NCBI GenBank assembly: GCA_028286915.1
Contig: JAQBQQ010000002.1
Coordinates: 1-39,244, forward strand
DNA: 39,244 bases
DNA from: Candidatus Peribacteria bacterium
GTDB lineage: Bacteria > Patescibacteriota > Gracilibacteria > Peribacterales > Peribacteraceae
Direction of reading: 5' to 3'
Shown here: in pieces, positions 19,670-32,823 of the stretch
Layout: the number at the start of each line of letters is the position of its first letter
How positions within the stretch are numbered: position 1 is the first letter of the stretch
Notes under the pieces: model-generated
What the model was told of the DNA's origin: nothing
Database searches by the model: none
What the model saw: the letters and a program-made list of their open reading frames with translations, nothing else
Position numbers and translations under genes: made by a program

Positions 19670-20971
19670 TCATTGTTTCTTCCCGGCCTCATCGAATAGT
19701 GGGAACTGGGCGTGCACGTTTGGGCCTGGCTGTTCATGAAAGTAGAAAACGAACAGGAGCCAGGCGATGAAAGTGACCGTACTGGCGACAAAAATGGGCA
19801 AATTCGGATGAATGGTGGATATAAAACCGCCGATAATAGGCGGAATAGCTGCGGCAAGCGCCTGGAGTGACTGCTTAATGCCGATAATCTCTCCCTGCAT
19901 CTCTTCGCCCGCCAGGTCTGAGACAATCGTACTCGCCGCAGGATCCAGCAGCCCTTCGGCAATGGCTATGAAAGGAATCAAAAGGTACAGATAGATGGAT
20001 GTATTGGGCAATAGAAGTGCCGGTAACAGAAGGGCCAGCAAAAAGCTGCAAACCGCGATTGTACGCCGAAGACCAAATCTTTTGGTAATAGGACGAACCA
20101 GGAAACCCTGAACAATGGCAATCCATACGCCGGCATAGCCGAAGAAATCACCGATATTTGACTGATTGTAGTGGAATTTTTCAATCAGAAAGACCTGGAA
20201 GAACTGAACAAAAAAATTGAAGCCGAGCGTAAGAATGAATACGACTAACAGAATAGTGCGCAAATGGCTGATTTCCATGGCACGTTTAATGTTATAAAAA
20301 CCTGTGAAAAGGCTTATGCGGGCCTTGGAACGGGTATGGAGTGTTTCCTGAAAGAATACCAGAAACAGCAGAATGTTGATGACGCTCAGCGCAGCTGCAA
20401 ACCAGAATGGCGTGGCAATGCTGAGTGCCGGATGCAGTGTGGAGTCCGACAATTTTCCGCCAATGTACGGTCCCAGAATAAAGCCCAATCCAAAAGCCAT
20501 GCCCAGCAGGCCGAAATTGCGGGTTTTCAAACTTTTTTCCTGGCTTATATCCGCTGCCGCCGACATGGCGATAGAGATATTGCCGCCGGTAAATCCGTCC
20601 AGTGCACGCGAGAAAAAGAGCAACGGCACATTTCTGGTCACAATGCCGATGGCAAACAACGCATAGCCGACAAGAGTGCCGAAGAGCGACATAATCAGCG
20701 TTACTTTGCGGCCGTATCTGTCGGATGCCGCGCCCAAAATAGGTGACCCGAAGAACTGCAGTAGCGGATACGCGGCCAGCAGGAAGCCATACAGAATGGA
20801 TCGTGTCGCGAGTGAGGTATGAGCCGGCAGAATGCTTACCGGTGTGTCCAGAACAATGACGGCCAGGACAGGCAGGGCTATACCGACGCCCATCATATCC
20901 AAAAAGACAGTCAGGAAGAGCGGAACGAGGGTGCGTTTGTGGGTAGAGACGTTTCGTGAAATGTCCGTCAT
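19670..20971 (-). CDS. MFS transporter, TetA/multidrug-efflux-like
   Basis: The 433-residue protein has 12 hydrophobic helices in two sets of six. LGAASDRYGRKVTLI is the MFS loop 2-3 motif (GxxxDRxGRK). FFSRALDGFTGGNISI in helix 4 and LGFILGPYIGGKLSD in helix 5 are the signatures of the drug:H+ antiporter branch that includes TetA. The substrate is not readable. It is the third gene of the operon after ileS and the 132-residue membrane protein, 27 bp downstream of the latter. Because the IleRS here is of the eukaryote-like class, a link to antibiotic tolerance is conceivable but unproven. Confidence 0.85.
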   Translation of the reverse strand: MTDISRNVSTHKRTLVPLFLTVFLDMMGVGIALPVLAVIVLDTPVSILPAHTSLATRSILYGFLLAAYPLLQFFGSPILGAASDRYGRKVTLIMSLFGTLVGYALFAIGIVTRNVPLLFFSRALDGFTGGNISIAMSAAADISQEKSLKTRNFGLLGMAFGLGFILGPYIGGKLSDSTLHPALSIATPFWFAAALSVINILLFLVFFQETLHTRSKARISLFTGFYNIKRAMEISHLRTILLVVFILTLGFNFFVQFFQVFLIEKFHYNQSNIGDFFGYAGVWIAIVQGFLVRPITKRFGLRRTIAVCSFLLALLLPALLLPNTSIYLYLLIPFIAIAEGLLDPAASTIVSDLAGEEMQGEIIGIKQSLQALAAAIPPIIGGFISTIHPNLPIFVASTVTFIAWLLFVFYFHEQPGPNVHAQFPLFDEAGKKQ

Positions 20972-20998
20972 ACAATCCGGGATGAGTGGAGGCGTATA

Positions 20999-21397
20999 CT
21001 ACTTTAAAGCCATCTTCATAAGCCAGTTTCCAATGCCAAATACAATACTTACCAGTACCCAACCTGCAATGCCGCCCAGAATCTCCATGTGCACCAGATT
21101 CTGGTCCATGAGTTGTATCATGCTGTAGGTGAGCCACATAAAAATGCCGTTAATGAGAATGAGTGCCAATAGCATGGCAAATAATTTCAGTGGTAGTGCC
21201 AAAATGCCCAGCAGTGGCCGGATAATGATATTCATGAACGTAAGCAGCGCGCCAATGACAATGTAGGCAAACAGTCCGCCTCCCACCGAAAAGTAATCCG
21301 TAAGATAGCTGGCCATAGCCCAGACCAGCAGGATATTCAGTATTGCACGGATGAACAGCCGGGCTGGGAAAGAAAGCGTATGATTCTCGTGAGGCAT
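20999..21397 (-). CDS. Four-helix membrane protein, phage holin 4_2 / DUF-type
   Basis: The 132-residue protein has four membrane helices (about 13-35, 40-60, 63-90 and 107-130). The segment LTFMNIIIRPLLGILALPL, followed by a final hydrophobic pair, matches the widespread bacterial family called mycobacterial 4-TM phage holin superfamily IV. Despite the name, these proteins are ordinary chromosomal membrane proteins of unknown role. The start is 10 bp after the ileS stop, so it belongs to the ileS operon. No other phage gene is near, which argues against a prophage. Confidence 0.75.
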   Translation of the reverse strand: MPHENHTLSFPARLFIRAILNILLVWAMASYLTDYFSVGGGLFAYIVIGALLTFMNIIIRPLLGILALPLKLFAMLLALILINGIFMWLTYSMIQLMDQNLVHMEILGGIAGWVLVSIVFGIGNWLMKMALK

Positions 21398-21407
21398 GGC
21401 GCAAAGA

Positions 21408-24400
21408 TTAGCGCACGGAGAAGCGTACTGTCACCTTGCGGTCATCCAACTCCATGGCATGGTCATCACCCTGGGCGGTGCCTATGATGGCATTTGTCTC
21501 ACGTTCAATAAGTGCCTGATGGCCGGATAGAATGTCATCTGCGCCGGTTACAGCCAGGACAATCTGATCCTGCATCTGAAGGCCCTGTTCTTTGCGGAGC
21601 TTCTGTATGCCCCGGACTATATCGCGTGCCAGGCCTTCCAGCTGGAGTTCGGGCGTTACGGTTGTATCCATACTCACTACAATACCGTGATCGGCCGCCA
21701 CATTGGCCGAGCCTTCCCGGCTGCGGTAGACCACTGTCACTTCCTCGGGTAGAAGCGTTTCGCCCATAATATCTATGGATCCGTCTTCTTTGACCGTAAA
21801 TTCACCGCGTTTACCGGCCGCTATGAGCTCCTGCACCTTTTTGCCGAACCGCGGACCGGCTTTGCGGGCATCTACCTGCGCGAACGCTTCGGCCAATGTA
21901 CCCGGGTCTTCCACGAATTCCAGGTTTTTCACGTTCAACTCATCACGCAGTAGTTGCAGGTCGGCATGTGTCAGCCAGTCGCGCGACAGGATATCGGTTG
22001 GAAGTGCCACAATGCTGCCAGCCAGCGGTTGTCGTACTTTTACCTTCTGGTCGGAGCGGATACTAAGGCCCAGCGATACAATGCGCCGCATAACGCGTGT
22101 TTTGTGTAATAATACGTGTTCATCAGCGGTCAGCTGTCTTGTTTCCGGCCAACGGGTAAGGTGCACGGAACCATGCTCTTCACCGGTAAGGTTGAGATAC
22201 ACGGCTTCCGTCATAAACGGGCAGAACGGCGCGAGCAATTGGCTGACTGTTAACAGCACATCGTACAATGTAGATAAAGCCATCTGCTGATCCTCCGTGT
22301 GTTCGCCTTCGCCGGGACTGTCTTCCTGCAGGGCTGATTTACCCGCAAAACGCCGGCGCGACAGGCGAATGTACCAGTTGGTGAGCCGGTCAATGGTTTC
22401 ATGGAGTTCATTACAACAGGCAGAGAGGTCGTAGCTGTCCAGCTGGGCAGTCATACGGTTCGTTAAATCCTGTATCTCGGTTAATATCCAGGTATCCAGT
22501 GGATGATCGGATTTTTTCCGTGTCGGGACTGGTTCCCATCCCGCCGCGTTGGCATATGTGACAAAGAACGAATACGTATTCCAAAATGGTAAAAGGACAT
22601 TGCGCAGCGTTTCCTCTACCAGTTTTTCGGAGAATCGCATGTCTTCCGCCCGCACGGCAGGTGATTGCATGAGGGCAAAACGGACTGCATCGGCGCCGTG
22701 CTTGTCAACAATAATAAGTGGTTCCGGGTAGTTCTTTAGGCGCTTGCTCATTTTTTTGCCGTCCTCGGCCAGCACGGTGCCGTTTACAATACAGTGCTCA
22801 AATGCCGGTTTGCCAAACAGGGCGGCGCTTAAGACGGTAAGCGTATAGAACCATCCGCGTGTCTGGTCGATTCCTTCGGCAATAAAATCAGCCGGAAAAC
22901 CTGGCGGCAGGCTGTCGGAGGTGCTTTCAAACGGGTAATGAGCCTGGGCATATGGCATGGATCCGCTCTCAAACCAGCAATCCAGTACATCCGGAATGCG
23001 GCGGAATTTTGGTCCCAGATAGATAGTTTCGGTATGGCAGTTCGGGTAAAGCGTGTAGCCGGAAGCACCCTGCTCCACCTGCTTGAGCGCATTTATGAAG
23101 CGGCCGTGAGTTACCAGTAGCACGCGTTTGCCTGCGTACTGTTCTTTTATATAAAGAATAGCTGCTTTTGCCCGGTCCAGAAGAGCGGCTTTGGATTCAC
23201 CGTCCGGCATATCCATCAGGTTTAACCGGAAGTTCCTGGCAAATTCCGGATCTATAGCCTCCAGCTCCTGTATGGTCTTTCCTTCGTAAGCGCCAAACGA
23301 TTGTTCCTGAAATAGTGCCATGGGGATAATGTCCTTATTCCAGCCTTCGGTAACAATACATGCTGTTTCATTGGCTCTCTGCAAGTCCGATGAAAGGATG
23401 ACATCATAGTCCTCCATTTTTAGTACTGACTGCACCCCGGCCGCCTGTTTCCTGCCAAGTTCCGACAGTTCCCTATCCGATGCGCCGGTAATTCTTCCCT
23501 CCCCGTTCCAGTCGCTCTCGCCATGCAGCAGAACAGTTAACTGCACAGCTGTCGGGTCCTCTGCTTCATGCCAGCTAATAGAATCCATAACCTCCTTGTG
23601 TAAGTCGAACGGGCTGCCCGTCTGATGGTCCCAGTAAAATGTATAGGGCGTTGCGTAAGACGGAAATGGTTGTTCGGTTAACTTACGCGGCTCCTCACCG
23701 GTAAAGAAATATTCTATATTTTTGACTATATCCGCATGAGTAACGAGCACTATATGTTCACCTTTATTGTTCAGTATTATCTCCTTTAGAAAGGGCTGAA
23801 CCCTTCTATTTACGTCTTCCCAATTTTCCATACCCGGTAGATGATAGATTGTTTCAATTTTGTTCGTTTCCAGCTTATGCTGCCGTCGTTCTTTTACAAA
23901 CGACAAGTCGGTGTAATCCAGTGTCTTGCCTTCATACTCGTTAAATTCAACTTCACGGATACGATCATCTATTTCGACAGGAATGCCGGTTTCCTTGCCG
24001 ATAACTGCTGCAGTTTGTTGGGTTCGTGCCAGCGGAGAAGAATAAATTTTTTGTACACCTTTATCCTTTAATATAAGAGCTAATTTAAATGCCTGTAATT
24101 TTCCATTTTCGGTTAAATCTGTTCCAGGAACCTCGCTTTGATATATGGGAATGAGATTGCCTTCGCTTTCGCCGTGTCTTACTACGGTAATCTTTGTAAA
24201 GCGACCCGGGCATATTCCGCGCACGGCATCACGGCTGCCAAGGACACGTATCTCACCGGTTGTGTCGTGCCGCCAAAGCGGTAAGGGGGTTCCCCAGTAG
24301 CGGCTGCGGGAAATAGCCCAGTCACGGGAGTTTTCGAGCCAATTCCCAAAGCGTCCATCGCGTATGTGATCCGGTACCCATTCCGTTTGCGCATTCGCTT

Positions 24401-25784
24401 TCAGCATGGCTTGCTTGATTTTCTCAACTGAAACGAACCAGGAAGAAGTGGCATAGTTAAGCAGCGGAGTGTCGCACCGCCAGCAGTGAGGATACGTGTG
24501 AGTATAACTTATTTGTTCAAATAATAGCCCTTTCTCTTGAAGTTTTTTTATTATTTTTTGATCGGTTTTAGTCGGGTCGTCCTTTGGTTTTACTTCCTGT
24601 CCTGCAAAGTCGGTTACGGCAGGTATAAATTTCCCTTCCATGGTTACATGCTGGAGTACTTTGGTTCCTTCGCGTTTGCCCACTTCAAAGTCATCTTCGC
24701 CAAAGCCCGGTGCAATATGTACAACACCCGTGCCATCTTCCGTTGTCACAAAATCGCCTGCTACCACTCGGAAGGCAAGTGGGTAATCGGCAGTAAAATA
24801 GGGGAAAAGAGGCGTATATTTTTTGCCAATCAAATCCTGCGCGGATAGTTCGGAGAGAAGTTCATAGGACTCATTGTCTGGCTGGTTATTTTTAGGTTTT
24901 TCATTGGATTTCTTCGTAAAATAAGCCTGAGAGGCTATGTAAACGCCGTTTTGGTCAGGATTTTCCGTATTTTTGTAGCGAAACTTCACATAAGTCACAC
25001 CCGGATTTACTGCCAGAAACAAGTTTCCTGGCAATGTCCAGGGCGTGGTTGTCCAGGCCAGAACATAGGTCTTCTCATTACTCGTTTCCTTTGAATCCTT
25101 TCCGTCTTTTGGTTCCTCCAGGACAAACTTCACCACCGCGGATTGATCCGTTACTTCTTTATAGCCCTGCGTTACTTCAAAGTTGCTCAGCGGCGTGACA
25201 CAGCGCGGGCAGATTTGCATGGGCTTATGACCTTCATAGATAAGACCTTTTTTATAAAGTTCCTCAAATACCCACCAGATGCTTTCCATGTAATCGGGGT
25301 CCATGGTGCGGTAGTCCCAGTCCATGTCCGCCCAGCGTCCCATGCGTTCCACGGTCGTCCGCCACTCTTTGGTATAGCGTAGTACTACGCTGCGACATAA
25401 GTCATTAAAGGCCTTTACGCCCATGGCTTTGATCTTATCCCGGTCCAGGCCGAACTCTTTTTCTACTTCGTATTCAACGGGCAATCCATGGCAATCCCAC
25501 CCAAAACGGCGTTGTACATGCTTACCCTGCATGGTCTGGTAACGCGGAATAACATCTTTGATAGTGCCGGCCAACAAGTGACCGTAATGCGGCAGGCCGG
25601 TGGCAAACGGCGGGCCATCGTAAAAGCTAAAACTGTCTTTGCCACCCTTTTTGCGTTCAGACTCTGTATCCAGCGCAATCAGGCTGCGGAGCGAGCGCTT
25701 AAAGGTATCTTCCTCTTGCCAGTATTTGAGTATGCCGCGTTCCAGCGCTGGAAATGATTGTTTAGGGTCGATGGGGTCGAACAT
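21408..25784 (-). CDS. ileS: Isoleucyl-tRNA synthetase with two inserted histidine-phosphatase domains
   Basis: The 1458-residue protein charges tRNA-Ile. Class I signatures are HYGH (66-69) and KMSKR (1011-1015); the editing CP1 domain occupies about 200-440. The [16 protein letters not shown] and [11 protein letters not shown] segments match the eukaryote-like IleS2 class, often mupirocin-insensitive. Residues about 528-922 (24203-23019) do not belong to IleRS. They are two tandem histidine-phosphatase (phosphoglycerate-mutase-like) domains between GSRDAVRGI and [20 protein letters not shown]. Domain 1 has R536-H537-G-E, R587, E611 and H683. Domain 2 has L753-H754-G-E, R803, E827 and H893. 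Normal length is about 1000-1050, so the excess equals the insert. The frame is unbroken. The start is the only ATG consistent with the family N-terminus. Confidence 0.95.
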   Translation of the reverse strand: [1458 protein letters not shown]

Positions 25785-25909
25785 AGAAAATTGGATAAAT
25801 TCAGCAGAGAGTATAGATGCTTTAGTTGTGGAATAATATTTGAATATAGACTTGGCTTTAAACTAATATTAGTTTATAAGTATAATTCATATTGTTTGGC
25901 TCTTTATAT

Positions 25910-26794
25910 ATGAATAAGGATTTGGATACATCTGGTAAAGATTTTGAATCTTTGCATGGCGAAGTGAGACGAGCAAAACTTCGTTCTGTAGCGATCGTAT
26001 ATTTTATGGATAGAGTTAATAAAGAAATAAACAAAGTTTTTCAATACAAAGACGTAGATGAATTTGAAAATGTTTTAGAGGATTTAGTACGTTTTTGTCA
26101 TTATGAAAACCAGAAAGAGGCAGTTCCGCTTTGGGAAGTGGCGGCAGATTACGTGGCACTAAAAGATTTTGACAATGATGCAGACATCCAAAAAGCATGT
26201 GTCGCATACGAAAAGCGGCGGGATATTGATCTTAAATTAAAAGATGAAGAGGCGCATATTTTGGCTTTGTATAATCAAAATGAAAGGGTGCAATTTATCA
26301 AGCCGGGAGTAAATCCTTTATATCGCGGGGAAAGACATGCTGAGAGAGGCTTTATTCACACAGAAACTACCCGGTTGAAAAACTTGATAGATCTTTTGAA
26401 TACGATTGCCTATGTTGAATCACATTTTCTTCATCGTGTTAGAAATTTATTACTTATGCCGCTTAGAAAGGGCCAGGATATCGATGAGACTATCAAATTT
26501 ACACGTAATGAATTTTGTCATATTTTGTATTCATCTCGCCTTACCGGCGAAGTTGAGGTGTCTATACCTCTTTTAATAGGTATTTTATATAATGATGTAT
26601 TGGATCAGGCAGACAACGCTATTCCTATAGAAGAATTCATAGCCAATAAGCAACCAGGTAGGTTCGAAGTCAGTCTTAATAAATCCGATCAGTCGCTAAA
26701 AGATGCATTTATGGGAGCAAAGTTCCTACTCTATACGGAAGATGGAAAAGACTATCCGGTAGCTGACGAGGAAGAGGTAATAGAGTATGGGTAG
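25910..26794 (+). CDS. Unknown 294-residue protein, first of three-gene cluster
   Basis: The product starts MNKDLDTSGKDFESLHGE, is soluble, charged and mainly helical by eye, with no signal peptide or membrane helix. Features that can be seen are a histidine/arginine-containing YRGERHAERGF around residue 140, TRLKNLIDLLNT, and a C-terminal acidic tail ending DEEEVIEYG. I recognise no family and no catalytic motif. Base composition is AT-richer than the flanking genes. ATG 25910 is chosen; an in-frame TTG at 25892 is possible because a TATAAT (25881-25886) would place transcription start almost on it. It is divergent from ileS and lies 99 bp before the next unknown gene. Confidence 0.65.
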   Translation: MNKDLDTSGKDFESLHGEVRRAKLRSVAIVYFMDRVNKEINKVFQYKDVDEFENVLEDLVRFCHYENQKEAVPLWEVAADYVALKDFDNDADIQKACVAYEKRRDIDLKLKDEEAHILALYNQNERVQFIKPGVNPLYRGERHAERGFIHTETTRLKNLIDLLNTIAYVESHFLHRVRNLLLMPLRKGQDIDETIKFTRNEFCHILYSSRLTGEVEVSIPLLIGILYNDVLDQADNAIPIEEFIANKQPGRFEVSLNKSDQSLKDAFMGAKFLLYTEDGKDYPVADEEEVIEYG

Positions 26795-26893
26795 ATAGTA
26801 TCTTTTGGCTATACAAACAGCAAAAAATACTTGCAACATACCAAGGAATGCGTAGTATTATGATGTAATATTTTATTTGTATTGGTCAAGATT

Positions 26894-27376
26894 ATGAGAA
26901 TTGATACCGTCAATCCCAGTGTGTACGCGCAGCTACGTAGACTTCACGGTCTGAATGACCGGGCAGATACTGTAGCAGCGCAGGTTAATATCATAGAAGT
27001 GGATTACGAGCAGATTATCAGGGAAAAACTTGCCGCTGACATGCGGATTCTTGTCAACGATATTCTTAGGGATCCAACTTCTGTCGATATATTGCGGCTT
27101 TCGGCCGAATTATTACTCAAGCTCGAAGATTGCATGGCTGAAAAGGGACGAAATTCGATGAGTCACGACGATGATAATTTGCAACTCGAATCTCCGCTGA
27201 CAGATCGTATGAATCACTTGCAGACTGCCTCTTCTGAGCCCTTGGTAAATAATGTTGATTTAAGCTTAATCTGGGAATTGAGTCGCGTTTTAACTCAGAA
27301 TATACATAATATTACAGTTTCCATTCTGGATGAGGATAGTGAGTTTCAGCCTGGTCCAAACGGTATTGCTGCATAA
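26894..27376 (+). CDS. Unknown 160-residue protein, second of three-gene cluster
   Basis: The product starts MRIDTVNPSVYAQLRRLHG. It is soluble and predicted helical in residues 1-75 (AQVNIIEVDYEQIIREKLAA) and 120-150, with an acidic low-complexity middle (SHDDDNLQLESP). No family is recognised. It ends 11 bp before the ATG of the next gene, so the two are almost certainly co-transcribed and possibly translationally coupled. ATG 26894 is preferred over an in-frame TTG at 26882. A small helical partner of the following protein is a reasonable guess from the gene spacing, nothing more. Confidence 0.6.
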   Translation: MRIDTVNPSVYAQLRRLHGLNDRADTVAAQVNIIEVDYEQIIREKLAADMRILVNDILRDPTSVDILRLSAELLLKLEDCMAEKGRNSMSHDDDNLQLESPLTDRMNHLQTASSEPLVNNVDLSLIWELSRVLTQNIHNITVSILDEDSEFQPGPNGIAA

Positions 27377-27387
27377 TTTTGTATAGT

Positions 27388-28365
27388 ATGGATCGTCAAC
27401 TTCATAGAATACCCGGCCCGGAAATTACTAATTATTATAATGGCGGTCAGCCAGGAAGGTTACTACATAGTGATTCAATTAACTCCATGCTCGAGCAGTT
27501 TAAGGCCATTTTTCAAGACGCAGTTGCCAAGCAAAAAGCAGAAATCGCACGCTGGAAAGAGTGGCTTCCTTGTATTTCAGATGCGACAGAAATAGATATT
27601 CCTACCATGGCGGCTTTATATCAGCAGACTATTGTCTCAAATAAAAAGTTGAATGATTTAATAAGAGGAAATGAAGAGCAGCAATACAGGGCAAGAATAA
27701 ACCTCGAGAATGAAGGAGGCTTCTTGCATGAAGAAGCTCCGGATATGAATTTAGAGCAGTATGTACATCAGGGTATTTGTCGCGTGCTTAAATCTCCAGC
27801 GGAGGGAGTATTGGGTTTTTATACTATTCTTACCGACCATAAAGCAGTTCAGGAAACCAGTATGCGCGAATTCGGTTGGCAACCAGGCAAGAAATATGAA
27901 TCAATTACCGATTTACCGCAGGTAAATACTGCCGGTGATAAACTTATGTGGATAAAGCCCGAGTATGCCTGCAACGTGTTAAATAAGATTGAGGAAAACA
28001 GACTTGCGCTTCCGGGTAGCATTGTCATCAAAAGGAATGATATCAATAACCTGCCGACCAGAGACCTGGGTCTTGCAACAGCCTTAAAAGTTCAGGCATA
28101 TGAAAGCCTGCCGGAGGATTGCTATACGCTTACCAGTATCTTCCATATTCGCCGGGTAAAAACGGAGAATGTAGATATGATATTTGAATCGTCTGTCGTC
28201 AACAGATGGAGTGAAATTATGAACAGGCGGTTAGGTGCCGAAGCCATTGGTTATAGAATTGAAAAATTTATCCGGGCTGATGGTATCGAATTGGAGGTGT
28301 ACTGGGAGTTAAACTCGTCCAAAGTAAAAGACCTTGTGCGACGGGCATATGAAAGAAAGACATAA
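27388..28365 (+). CDS. Unknown 325-residue protein, possible GNAT-like acyltransferase
   Basis: The product starts MDRQLHRIPGPEITNYYNGG. An N-terminal part (25-75) is helical with heptad character (QFKAIFQDAVAKQKAEIARW). The C-terminal half (about 135-325) has an order reminiscent of GNAT acetyltransferases: VLGFYTIL strand, RDLGLATALKVQA (an RxxGxA acetyl-CoA-loop-like motif), YTLTSIFHI strand, then NRWSEIMNRRLGAEAIGYR. In GNATs that last pattern, N..S...RLG, closes the fold. Similarity is by eye only, and residues 150-225 do not fit clearly. The gene is convergent with the RelA/SpoT-EamA gene, whose stop lies 1 bp away. No terminator separates them. Confidence 0.6.
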   Translation: MDRQLHRIPGPEITNYYNGGQPGRLLHSDSINSMLEQFKAIFQDAVAKQKAEIARWKEWLPCISDATEIDIPTMAALYQQTIVSNKKLNDLIRGNEEQQYRARINLENEGGFLHEEAPDMNLEQYVHQGICRVLKSPAEGVLGFYTILTDHKAVQETSMREFGWQPGKKYESITDLPQVNTAGDKLMWIKPEYACNVLNKIEENRLALPGSIVIKRNDINNLPTRDLGLATALKVQAYESLPEDCYTLTSIFHIRRVKTENVDMIFESSVVNRWSEIMNRRLGAEAIGYRIEKFIRADGIELEVYWELNSSKVKDLVRRAYERKT

Positions 28366-28366
28366 T

Positions 28367-31132
28367 TTATGCCTCTTTTTGATTAACTGCGATTAAATTG
28401 CCTCCAATAAGCAATGTTATTGCCATTATGACAGGGCCCATGCCTGCCCATCCGAATATAATTCCATCAGCAATACATGTTATGATTGCTGCTGCGTTAA
28501 TGGAGCGGGATACGCCTTGGTAACTTAATTGCTGCGTAAGATAGTAGAAAAGAACATAAGGAAGTCCTACGAAAAAAACGCTAAAAAGACTTGTGAGAAC
28601 AATAATATTAAAAGACGGAATTGAGCTTCTCAGTACGAATAGCAGTGGTGTTGAGGTGATGGCAGCCGTAAGGCTTGTATAAAAAAAGAACTGCGTATAG
28701 CGAGCATGAATACGAGCTTCTTTCTGGAATTTATTGCTTGCTGCCGTGTAAATTGCAAACATGCCGAGTACGCATATGGAAAGTACAATGCCTAACTGGT
28801 CATAACCGCTGAAGAATAATATTCCGAGGCCTGCAATAGTAAGTGCCCAGGATGCTGAGAATGAAGCCACCGAACGTTTTCTTATAAGAAGTGGTGATAT
28901 GAGAATGACGGCAGTGGCACGCAGGATGCCGTTGTAAATACTGGGAGATGTATGATCCAATGCCACGTATGTGAGAATGTTAACAAAAAACAACGTAACG
29001 CCTGCTACCCAAAGCGAAGGCTGCCTGAGGGGAATTCTGGATAGTTGATTGTTGCGATTCATGAAGAAGAAAATAGCAGCCGCAAAAATGGCAGTAGACC
29101 ATGCTCTAATGACGGCAAAATATTCAGGCGTAATATCCGTCATTAGTATTTTTTTTGCGAAGATTGGATCCAATCCCCAAAGTATTAAGAGAATAATGAC
29201 AGCGAATACGTTGATAATAGCTGATGAAGATGAAATTTTCATTTTTACATTCAGCCCTAGATATTGTAACTCTTTGTAAAAAAGTAATTGCTCATCTCGT
29301 GTCAGCAATACTTCAATCTTTCCTCTGCCGGGCCGGGATAACGGTTTAAGCTGAATATAAAGATTAAGAATTCGATGGCTGTATTTTTGATAAATTTTAT
29401 TCATGTCATTTGGCAGATCCTGTTTTTCTTTGGGGATGGGAAAAGATACTTCCCATTTCAACGGCTTTGATTGCTTGCTGTTTTTTTTTCTGCCAAAAGT
29501 ATTGGCTACTTTTTGAGGATCGATTCTGCCATCTGCAATGGCAATAAATGTATCATCCAGCGTTTCAAGGCCGATGGTTTGCAGGGAGGTTTCTAATTTT
29601 GCCTTGTCAAATTCTTCGATGTATCCCTGCTTTTGATCCAGCAATATTTCTTGCAGAATATCTCTGCCAAGCAATAATTTTTTATTTATTGATTTGGAAG
29701 ACAGGGCATTGCGGATTTCAGCACTTGCAAAAGCCGTATGGACCCACTGAAGCCATTCACGATTTACTGTCTGATGCCTGTTGAACGTCACCTCCAGCGA
29801 ATCAGCCTGGTTCAATGATGTGTAAAAAGGGACTTCCTTTCCATTGACGCGGATGGAGGAAATGCGCAGGCCTTCTTCCTGTAAAAGATACAGTGCGGCA
29901 TCCAGCGCAGTGGATTCCTTTGGTACCTGCATCGTCTTATCGCCGGGGCCGTGAATGAGCATGGTTTCGCCTAAAATATCGCTCTGCAGGCTGCCCCAGA
30001 AATCGTTACTGCTTCCTTTTGTATCCTTGGCCAGCGGAGAAATACGAAGCGTCCAGGAAAGATATTCTTTTACACCGAGTGCCTTATGATTAAAGCAGAA
30101 CAGTGTTACGCCTTTCTCGGTATATTCCTGCATTTCGTGCGTGCGGATTTTGCAGCGGACACGGGTGCCGTCGCTTAGAATGATGGTAGTGTGCAGCGCC
30201 TTATAGCCGTTAATAAGCGGTCCGTTAATATAGTCCTGGAAGGAAAGCATTTCACGCGGCCAGAGCTGATGCAACATGCCCAGGCACTGGTAGCATTCAT
30301 CTACCGTATCGCACTCGAAGACAATGGCGATATCGGCAATACCGGTAATGGCCGAGCCTTCGGCATTGAGTTGCGGACGCAGTTTATCAAAACGCTGATC
30401 CTCATAATGAAGATCAAACTTGGGTCCCATGGCTGGAAATTCCTCAGTCATATACTGCCGGATAGCTTTTGTGACGGTTTGTGCCCGGCGCTCCAGCTTA
30501 TCCCGTAAGGCCAATAATTGTTTTAGTTCTTCCGGTTCCAGTACGGCCGTACAAAGTTCTTCCATTTCCAGAAAAACCGATTGCATGCTCAGGCGGTCGG
30601 CGATTTTTACGTACACGTCCATGGTTTCCTGCGCCATAATGCGTTGCTTTTCCGGTGACAGGAATTCAATCGTCTCCATATTGTGCAGACGGTCGTACAG
30701 CTTGATGATCATGATGCGGACATCTTTTTCCATGAGGCTGAAAATCTTGCGGAGCGTTTCAATTTGCTCGTTCATGCTGGAATGCTCAGCCATATCTTCG
30801 TCATATAATTTCGTGACACCGTCGATAAGCATGGCCACATGGCCGTTGAAGGCTTTGTCAATTTCTTTCAGCGTAAGAGGCGTGTCTTCCACGGTGTCGT
30901 GCAATAAGGCGGCAATGAGCGTGTCGGCATCGGCTGCCACGTGAGTCAGTTTTTCGGCGACGGCAATGGGGTGCGTAAAGTACGGCTCACCGGATTTCCG
31001 CTTTTGGTCTTTATGCATATGTTCGCCCAGTTCAAAAGCCTTCTGCACACGCTTTTTATCGTCAGCATGTAAGTAGCCCAAAGAGGATGCAAATTCATTC
31101 CAATGCATATAGACTTGTAATTTTACTCTCAT
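28367..31132 (-). CDS. RelA/SpoT homologue fused to EamA-type membrane transporter
   Basis: The 921-residue open frame joins two proteins. Residues 15-200 are the (p)ppGpp hydrolase HD domain with H54 (YFTHPIAVAE), H78-D79 (ALLHDTVED) and D147 (YDRLHNM), close to known Rel numbering. Residues 225-350 resemble the synthetase: NGYKALHTT and IRTHEM are present, but the basic ATP-binding stretch is missing and the catalytic Glu of EIQIRT is Arg (R326). Activity may be hydrolysis only. A TGS domain (395-452) and an ACT-like end (590-630) follow. Residues 634-917 are a ten-helix EamA/DMT permease. M631 is an internal ATG at 29242 exactly at the junction. A Nudix gene ends 28 bp upstream. ATG 31132 or the ATG at residue 9 may be the start. 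Confidence 0.85.
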   Translation of the reverse strand: MRVKLQVYMHWNEFASSLGYLHADDKKRVQKAFELGEHMHKDQKRKSGEPYFTHPIAVAEKLTHVAADADTLIAALLHDTVEDTPLTLKEIDKAFNGHVAMLIDGVTKLYDEDMAEHSSMNEQIETLRKIFSLMEKDVRIMIIKLYDRLHNMETIEFLSPEKQRIMAQETMDVYVKIADRLSMQSVFLEMEELCTAVLEPEELKQLLALRDKLERRAQTVTKAIRQYMTEEFPAMGPKFDLHYEDQRFDKLRPQLNAEGSAITGIADIAIVFECDTVDECYQCLGMLHQLWPREMLSFQDYINGPLINGYKALHTTIILSDGTRVRCKIRTHEMQEYTEKGVTLFCFNHKALGVKEYLSWTLRISPLAKDTKGSSNDFWGSLQSDILGETMLIHGPGDKTMQVPKESTALDAALYLLQEEGLRISSIRVNGKEVPFYTSLNQADSLEVTFNRHQTVNREWLQWVHTAFASAEIRNALSSKSINKKLLLGRDILQEILLDQKQGYIEEFDKAKLETSLQTIGLETLDDTFIAIADGRIDPQKVANTFGRKKNSKQSKPLKWEVSFPIPKEKQDLPNDMNKIYQKYSHRILNLYIQLKPLSRPGRGKIEVLLTRDEQLLFYKELQYLGLNVKMKISSSSAIINVFAVIILLILWGLDPIFAKKILMTDITPEYFAVIRAWSTAIFAAAIFFFMNRNNQLSRIPLRQPSLWVAGVTLFFVNILTYVALDHTSPSIYNGILRATAVILISPLLIRKRSVASFSASWALTIAGLGILFFSGYDQLGIVLSICVLGMFAIYTAASNKFQKEARIHARYTQFFFYTSLTAAITSTPLLFVLRSSIPSFNIIVLTSLFSVFFVGLPYVLFYYLTQQLSYQGVSRSINAAAIITCIADGIIFGWAGMGPVIMAITLLIGGNLIAVNQKEA

Positions 31133-31160
31133 TTAAGCTTTTGGCACGCTTTTTTTTAGC

Positions 31161-31640
31161 TTACGTTAAAACAATTTTAAGCGTTTTTTTCACATTGGCA
31201 AAAATTTCGGTGTTCTCGTCCATTTCAGATATGTCATTCCAGGTAAACCATCGCAGATCTTCTGCTTCAGTTTGCTCGCATTGGAGTGCCTGTTCTTCGC
31301 ATAAAGGCCGGGCCAGATAGACAAAATCCATGTGCTGATGAAACGGTTCGCCGCGTTCGGGGCTGGCGGGAATATGCTCCAATAGCAGCAGGTACGGCTT
31401 TCGGAGCAGCCGGCCTTCGTGGTCACTTGTCTCAAAAACATTCGGCTGATGGTCGCTGGCCAGTTCTATATCCAGCCCTGTTTCCTCCTTGCACTCCCTC
31501 CGCGCAGCATCTTCCGGCAGCTCATTGGCATCCACGTGTCCGCCCGGCGGCATCCAGCGGCCCAGGCGCTTGTGCCAAAGTAAAAGCACGCGCTTGCGGC
31601 TGTCTATGACAATGGCAGTGGCGGTAAAGTGTCGGATCAT
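31161..31640 (-). CDS. Nudix hydrolase
   Basis: The 159-residue protein carries a complete Nudix box. It begins GGHVDANELPEDAARRE (about residues 33-49) and continues CKEETGL, satisfying GX5EX7REUXEEXGU. The start MIRHFTATAIVIDSRKR is the first Nudix beta strand. Nudix enzymes cleave nucleoside diphosphates linked to other groups; the substrate is not readable. It lies just upstream of the RelA/SpoT-EamA gene (28 bp) and is likely co-transcribed, which makes a nucleotide such as a (p)ppGpp relative worth considering. A TACTAT -10-like box ends 7 bp before the ATG, with TTTACC 17 bp further up, so the mRNA may be leaderless. Confidence 0.9.
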   Translation of the reverse strand: MIRHFTATAIVIDSRKRVLLLWHKRLGRWMPPGGHVDANELPEDAARRECKEETGLDIELASDHQPNVFETSDHEGRLLRKPYLLLLEHIPASPERGEPFHQHMDFVYLARPLCEEQALQCEQTEAEDLRWFTWNDISEMDENTEIFANVKKTLKIVLT

Positions 31641-31744
31641 CAGCAGGATAGTAAGTCACGCACTCTGTATGGTAAAGAAGCCTTTACGATGGTGTCTCCG
31701 GTTCTGTATGTCGTGCGTTTCACACTGGCATATAGCTTATATAA

Positions 31745-32707
31745 TTATGGATGCGTATCCAGAATCATTACCTCCGGCCAGGCGAATAACCGTGCCCGGA
31801 CACCGGATTCACCCACGCCGCGGGTAATGGCCAGCGTCGTGTCGGCATCAATGGTAAATATTCCCTGGTCATACTGCCTGCCCAGACGGTCGGGAATTTT
31901 TGCCAGTGGCCCCATGAAGGGCAACCGTATTTGTCCGCCGTGCGTATGTCCGGTCACAATCAGTTGGGCGCGTTTGCTCTGGTCGTTTAAGATAATATCC
32001 GGACTATGGGAAAGAAGAATAAGTGGCATGTCTTTCGGGACGCTTGCCAGTGTCTGCGTAAGTTCATAGTTACGGAACAGCGGATCATCCATGCCGGCAA
32101 TGGCTATGTCTCCGCCTGGCATGTGCACGATGGCGGATGTGCCGCGCAATGTAATGATATGCATGTCTGCCAGATATTTTTCGATGGCGTCGGATGCATT
32201 CTTATATCTTGTGCCGCCGTTTTCGCCAATATTTCCAAGGTCATGGTTCCCAATGACGGCATAGATTCCAAATGATGCGTGTATATTTCCCAGCGGCGCC
32301 AGGTCCTCCAGTTTTGCTTCCGATGTGTACAAAAAATCTCCGGGAATAAATACCAGATCCGGTTTTGTGGCATTCACTTTTTTTACAACGCGCTCTACGA
32401 AGCGTTTTCCTTTAAACGGGCCGACGTGCAAGTCTGAAATGACCGCAATGGTCAGCGGCTGTCTGGCCGGGAATGCCACGCTATGGTGCGTCGTCACAAT
32501 AATCTGCGGCTCAACGAACGCGCCGTAGAGAACAGTGAAAAACCCGATAATACCCAGAATGCCGATAGGAGCAATAATGAACCGCCTTCTGGCTTTCCTA
32601 TTCCGCCTGAGCCACACGAGGCTGCCCGCACTCAGTGCCACAAAATAGGCCAGCATCAGCAGGATCATCATATCTCCCGGGAAGGCGTAGGTATTGAGCA
32701 GGAACAT
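31745..32707 (-). CDS. Membrane-anchored metallophosphoesterase (YkuE/YaeI-like)
   Basis: The 320-residue protein has two N-terminal helices (about 10-33 and 43-64), then a calcineurin-like phosphoesterase domain. Its motifs are VISDLHVG (metal), FIPGDFLY, VIGNHDLG, LSHSPDI and TGHTHGGQIRLP. All five metal-binding blocks are present. The GHTHGGQIRLP ending is that of the YkuE/YaeI group, which acts on membrane lipids or wall intermediates at the cytoplasmic face or outside. The substrate is unknown. It lies 104 bp upstream of the Nudix gene on the same strand. No Shine-Dalgarno is present. Confidence 0.9.
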   Translation of the reverse strand: MFLLNTYAFPGDMMILLMLAYFVALSAGSLVWLRRNRKARRRFIIAPIGILGIIGFFTVLYGAFVEPQIIVTTHHSVAFPARQPLTIAVISDLHVGPFKGKRFVERVVKKVNATKPDLVFIPGDFLYTSEAKLEDLAPLGNIHASFGIYAVIGNHDLGNIGENGGTRYKNASDAIEKYLADMHIITLRGTSAIVHMPGGDIAIAGMDDPLFRNYELTQTLASVPKDMPLILLSHSPDIILNDQSKRAQLIVTGHTHGGQIRLPFMGPLAKIPDRLGRQYDQGIFTIDADTTLAITRGVGESGVRARLFAWPEVMILDTHP

Positions 32708-32783
32708 GTGAAGCCAGTTTAATTGACCGGCCTCCGTTCGCCTAGGTTGTCTGCGTGCAATAAATCTCGTTTTTTTCAGCCAT

Positions 32784-32823
32784 AAAAATTGCCCCCAAAT
32801 CCGAATTTTCGGAAGTGGGGGGC
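32784..32823 (-). terminator. Terminator of the 51-residue gene
   Basis: On the minus strand GCCCCC...GGGGGC forms an outer stem and TCCGAA/TTCGGA an inner stem, followed by AATTTTT. The stem has internal mismatches. It begins 6 bp after the stop at 32829. Confidence 0.7.

Follow-up and report, generated by a model that had tools for sequence, protein, structure and literature searches.

Why should an isoleucyl-tRNA synthetase (IleRS) hold histidine phosphatases inside its catalytic core, and would they act there as enzymes? The question is posed by a 39,244-nucleotide stretch of Candidatus Peribacteria DNA (referred to here as the window), in which one reading frame runs, free of stops, through synthetase, phosphatase, phosphatase and synthetase again (Table 1). 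An initial sequence-only reading had taken the product for a true IleRS in one unbroken frame with two phosphatase domains in its CP2 region. That much has held, and the phenomenon turns out to be wider than was claimed.

The synthetase and its two enclosed phosphatases

The frame passes the cut-off of the IleRS equivalog profile (621 bits) and retains the IleRS signatures PHYGH and KMSKR, together with TTTPWTLPGN and GEDDF in the editing site. The profile search that yielded this single match covered a 1.43 Mb genome, a draft of 48 contigs with an estimated completeness of 100%. On these sequence features, the product is predicted to be the cell's working IleRS, the enzyme that aminoacylates tRNA-Ile. 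The AlphaFold2 model of residues 1-1095 has a mean pLDDT of 82.5 and a pTM of 0.77 (the insert modelled by itself reaches a pLDDT of 90.4); its host part finds its matches among IleRS structures and the insert among histidine phosphatases of solved structure, which supports intact folds of both parts, as modelled. An Rfam scan of positions 20500-32800 found no structured RNA.

Table 1. Features of the ileS region of the window
Feature	Position	Strand	Basis
ileS, whole ORF, 1458 aa, with two inserted phosphatase domains	21408..25784	(-)	ORF; TIGR00392 866 bits; the genome's only IleRS match
IleRS residues 1-527: HIGH-type motif PHYGH 65-69, CP1 editing domain, catalytic core to WGTPLPLW	24204..25784	(-)	Pfam tRNA-synt_1 18-516; motif conservation
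Phosphatase domain 1, residues ~528-712, CP2 site i; R536 H537 R587 E611 H683	23649..24203	(-)	His_Phos_1 123.7 bits; invariance; model
Retained IleRS CP2 motif DLHKEVMDSISW, residues 727-738, separating both phosphatases	23571..23606	(-)	Alignment with insert-free IleRS DLHKPYIDDITF
Phosphatase domain 2, residues ~748-922, CP2 site ii; LHG for RHG	23019..23543	(-)	His_Phos_1 135.6 bits; L753
IleRS residues 926-1458: DCWFESG, KMSKR 1011-1015, anticodon-binding domain, C-terminal DUF5915	21408..23009	(-)	Pfam; motif conservation
4-TM holin-like gene, downstream of ileS	20999..21397		
RelA/SpoT gene, upstream of ileS	28367..31132		

Both matches to Pfam His_Phos_1 (PF00300, the branch-1 histidine phosphatases; overall E 1.4e-74) exceed the gathering cut-off of 21.7 bits, and the segment singled out by the sequence-only reading, 23019-24203 or residues 528-922, comprises the two domains. 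Domain 1 has the complete R-H/R/E/H catalytic set, with RHGE (536-539), R587, E611 and H683 just where that reading had placed them, and these five residues, R, H, R, E and H, are invariant in all 52 Peribacteraceae sequences (the G of the RHG motif is often A); judged by these residues, domain 1 is apparently active. Domain 2 of the window genome lacks the first arginine of the set: L753 (codon CTG) stands at a position where Arg is found in all 46 of the other Peribacteraceae sequences that have a residue there, while H754, R803, E827 and H893 are kept, and the domain is probably impaired or weakened in this genome. The mean frequency of the majority residue in Peribacteraceae is 0.71 for domain 1, 0.59 for the IleRS editing domain and 0.55 for domain 2.

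The editing site itself is variable. Located in CP1 (residues 245-253 and 351-366 of the window protein), it is degenerate in about half of Peribacteraceae IleRSs, with Ser or Gly in place of the catalytic Asp, or STLSTMG in place of TLPGN; the canonical DD is found in 27 of 53, the window's among them.

Insertion points, origins and spread

In insert-free relatives of the class, CP2 is a zinc ribbon, WRCPNC...SSRDEL...DLHKPYIDDITFPCEKC...RRISDVFDCWFESG. The window protein has domain 1 at site i, flanked by GSRDAV and DLHKEVMDSISW, and domain 2 at site ii, flanked by DLHKEVMDSISW and RRIPDVLDCWFESG, with the motif DLHKxxVDxI retained between the two sites. The two domains belong to different phosphatase clades, and a tree grouping both together is rejected (p-AU 0.002). 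The sequence-only reading, right as to two phosphatase domains, was incomplete on this point. The domains are not consecutive copies in a single loop: separate CP2 positions and different clades mark them as separate acquisitions, and tandem duplication of one phosphatase is ruled out.

When about 110 IleRSs are aligned to a model without inserts, inserts of any type fall after model positions 218, 254, 471-492 (CP2), 541 (CP3) and 673, the last lying past KMSKS and ahead of the anticodon-binding domain. Histidine phosphatases occupy four of the sites (CP2-i, CP2-ii, CP3 and 673), and one IleRS (L056) has three of them at three sites. The tree tests reject one shared origin for the whole set of IleRS inserts (p-AU 0.009), but not one origin for those of site i (p 0.17), of site ii (0.64) or of the KMSKS site (0.14) taken alone, so that the number of insertions is fixed only as a minimum, by the distinct positions. 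On the IleRS tree, inserts of any type require at least 13 changes of CP2 state, with minima of 5 at the 673 site and 7 at CP3. Other domains are also inserted in frame into IleRSs of the class: an IS200/REP-type transposase within the editing domain, GNAT acetyltransferases at CP3 and a Nudix-like domain (the loci of these non-phosphatase inserts are L047 and L080 at position 254, L046, L062, L086 and L087 at 541 and L048 at 218).

Within the window's family, 36 genomes (the window's included) provide 35 assessable IleRSs. Every one of them has domain 1: 27 carry two domains, seven carry one, and one is ended by a contig edge within domain 1. A scan of named genomes from many separate projects, nearly all Candidatus Peribacteria/Peregrinibacteria, gave 70 loci, with two phosphatase domains in 53, one in 15 (several of these ended by contig edges, and three not from the window's family), none in one fragment and three in one (L159, CG1_02_54_53). 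The outcomes that would have counted against the sequence-only reading, a short IleRS with separate phosphatase genes in independent assemblies or absence of the insert from close relatives, did not materialize. One record titled Kiritimatiellales (L199) has a Peribacteria-type IleRS with one phosphatase; that bin is probably mislabelled or contaminated.

Farther afield, a sample drawn evenly from the class, excluding the family, confirmed phosphatases in 36 genomes with long IleRS frames; beyond the class, 15 of 20 long IleRSs that were fetched have one, and four further ones were identified later. The internal hosts found in Patescibacteria are almost exclusively synthetases: IleRS, ValRS in 14 genomes and one AlaRS (L224), plus one UvrB (L102). 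The UvrB (L102:1561-4935) holds its histidine phosphatase in mid-protein with the catalytic set intact. A single genome (G058) combines an AlaRS whose insert lacks the catalytic Glu (L224:1297-4482) and a ValRS with three phosphatase domains (L105:501-4799) with an IleRS of its own that has GNAT-type inserts instead of a phosphatase.

The catalytic set is complete in 117 of the 120 phosphatase domains inserted in IleRS: 27/27 for domain 1 and 26/27 for domain 2 of the family, 39/39 for other CP2 inserts, 22/23 at the 673 site and 3/4 at CP3. It is complete in 10 of 16 ValRS inserts and incomplete in the AlaRS insert. We infer from these residues that phosphatase activity is under selection in IleRS and that it has decayed in some of the ValRS copies.

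Family assignment and gene neighbours

Which phosphatase is it? Glycolytic 2,3-BPG-dependent phosphoglycerate mutase is out: the whole protein scores 72 bits against TIGR01258, under the cut-off of 81.7, and the mutase is a separate, freestanding gene (C19) that scores 236 bits and is of the glycolytic dPGM type. Where a family genome has iPGM, it mostly has no freestanding dPGM-type gene, and vice versa (G006 may have both; in G005 neither was found), and the inserts occur with either. Fusions of a dPGM-type mutase do exist, to a 2-hydroxyacid dehydrogenase in two genomes and to pyruvate kinase in one (L233, L234, L236); unlike the synthetase inserts, these are of the glycolytic type and joined end-to-end. 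Against TIGR03162 (alpha-ribazole phosphatase CobC; cut-off 162.9), the whole protein scores 156 bits and the excised insert 161.8, summed over both domains and still below. The protein is also not a member of NF040702, the IleRS with a GNAT domain (283 bits, cut-off 1999). Since the inserts fall under the curated cut-offs of specific phosphatase families, sequence assigns them no substrate; among enzymes of solved structure, the PspA, PhoE and Rv2419c types come nearest to them.

Two further proposals were discarded. The insert does not stand in for a missing inorganic pyrophosphatase: PF00719 is patchy in a way unrelated to the insert and is present in the window genome. Nor is it a universally needed phosphatase that has been relocated, for 17 genomes of the class have neither an insert nor any PF00300 protein, which means that this phosphatase activity is not required universally.

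The neighbours of ileS and of freestanding relatives of the inserts offer a different kind of clue. In one lineage of the class (L083, L084, L242 and L243), a CP3-type phosphatase has a gene of its own, near ileS and between a tRNA-editing-domain gene (PF04073) and the threonine ammonia-lyase gene ilvA; genomes related to that lineage have the CP3-type phosphatase within IleRS. A freestanding relative of domain 2 overlaps smpB in two insert-free genomes of one family (L225:3399-4417, L227:2821-3839). In the window, a RelA/SpoT gene lies 2.6 kb from ileS, and one is found near ileS in about 40 of 104 Peribacteria loci, despite short flanks; this proximity is a suggestive but weak hint of a functional link. 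The holin-like gene on the other side recurs in 82 of the 104. Taken together, the neighbour genes point to translation or amino-acid supply without naming a substrate.

Candidate roles and known relatives

We lean, with somewhat less than even confidence, to the proposal that a tethered and active phosphomonoesterase serves aminoacylation or tRNA. Held beside the IleRS catalytic core, domain 1 would work by the phospho-histidine mechanism on a phosphate compound that is produced at, bound by or blocking aminoacylation, and the tether would put the phosphatase where that compound arises; domain 2, acquired separately, would be another phosphatase and one that is probably weakened in the window genome. 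Candidate targets would be the by-products AMP, PPi or ApnA, nucleotides of the (p)ppGpp type, or tRNA with a blocked 3' end. Aminoacyl-AMP, which the sequence-only reading had listed with signalling nucleotides and tRNA ends, is a poor candidate for a histidine phosphatase, its phosphate being no terminal monoester. The proposal draws on the retention of the catalytic set in nearly all IleRS inserts and the conservation of domain 1 above the editing domain; on the use of at least four IleRS positions, the rejection of a single origin and the near restriction of hosts to synthetases; and on the CP3-type phosphatase that is found either in IleRS or near ileS and the domain-2 relatives that overlap smpB. 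It is weakened by the loss of catalytic residues from some ValRS inserts, the AlaRS insert and the window's domain 2, by a host, UvrB, that belongs to DNA repair, and by the many relatives that have no PF00300 protein. A bolder extension, which we put forward more tentatively, is that Patescibacteria have repeatedly built IleRS-, ValRS- and AlaRS-phosphatases that carry out an unrecognised step of translation quality control or regulation, such as ridding the synthetase of an inhibitory nucleotide or of a tRNA with a blocked end.

The main rival, unlikely but to be taken seriously, regards the insert as a passenger, an active phosphatase for metabolites in general, lodged in a tolerant loop of a protein that is both essential and abundant, with a substrate unrelated to aminoacylation. 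The top structure and sequence matches, PspA, PhoE and Rv2419c, are indeed metabolite phosphatases, one phosphatase has entered UvrB, and the presence of GNAT, Nudix and transposase domains in IleRSs of the class means that the protein may simply tolerate inserts in its loops. Against mere lodging speak the strong skew of hosts to IleRS and ValRS and the translation-related genes that adjoin the freestanding relatives. Two other explanations are each improbable. In CP2, the inserts stand in place of the zinc knuckle or divide it, and they might have taken over from it as a structural or tRNA-contacting scaffold, the phosphatase chemistry being irrelevant; the residues lost from the window's domain 2 and some ValRS inserts would fit, but the almost complete conservation of catalytic residues in IleRS inserts throughout the phylum does not. 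Alternatively, the phosphatase might undo phosphorylation or pyrophosphorylation of the synthetase or its tRNA by kinase- or alarmone-synthetase-like toxins, which are known to attack synthetases and the CCA end of tRNAs. The patchy gain, loss and decay of inserts suits such an arms race; however, no toxin partner came to light, and in Peribacteraceae the domain is universal rather than sporadic. That the frame is an assembly artefact or chimera, conceivable for a 48-contig draft, is refuted to the point of near-certainty by the 70 loci from many independent projects and by single-contig genomes of the same architecture.

To return to the tethered enzyme, its interest is that a highly conserved, essential protein has had its core interrupted at several positions by one enzyme family whose catalytic residues are kept, which implies that selection has favoured a phosphatase close to or at the site of aminoacylation. 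It provides a testable handle on an unrecognised way in which phosphate chemistry would be tied to tRNA charging across a very large radiation of uncultured bacteria, and it shows, in a present-day series of examples, how insertion domains of the kind seen in the ancient editing domain can come about in synthetases. The sequence-only reading knew of no characterised enzyme of this design; full-text searches of a collection of published open-access papers likewise found no description of a synthetase with a histidine phosphatase or phosphoglycerate-mutase domain, nor of Peribacteria synthetases so built.

Several known systems resemble the protein in part. It shares catalytic, editing and anticodon-binding parts, and the HIGH-type and KMSKR motifs, with the IleRS2/eukaryote-like IleRSs (TIGR00392; PDB 8c8v, 7d5c, 1ile); in these insert-free relatives CP2 holds a short zinc ribbon, whereas here it holds two phosphatase domains. 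With the branch-1 enzymes PspA, PhoE, CobC and Rv2419c (PDB 4ij5, 1h2e, 4pz9) the inserts have fold and catalytic residues in common, but those enzymes are freestanding and the inserts score below their families' cut-offs. The NF040702 IleRSs also have an enzyme domain within the frame, in their case an acetyltransferase instead of a phosphatase. Finally, the RNase H/acid phosphatase (PRK07238) and mycobacterial MutT1 (Nudix plus histidine phosphatase, PMC11784022) likewise join a phosphatase to an enzyme of nucleic acids or nucleotides; these fusions are end-to-end and involve no synthetase, whereas the inserts of the window protein interrupt the catalytic core of one.
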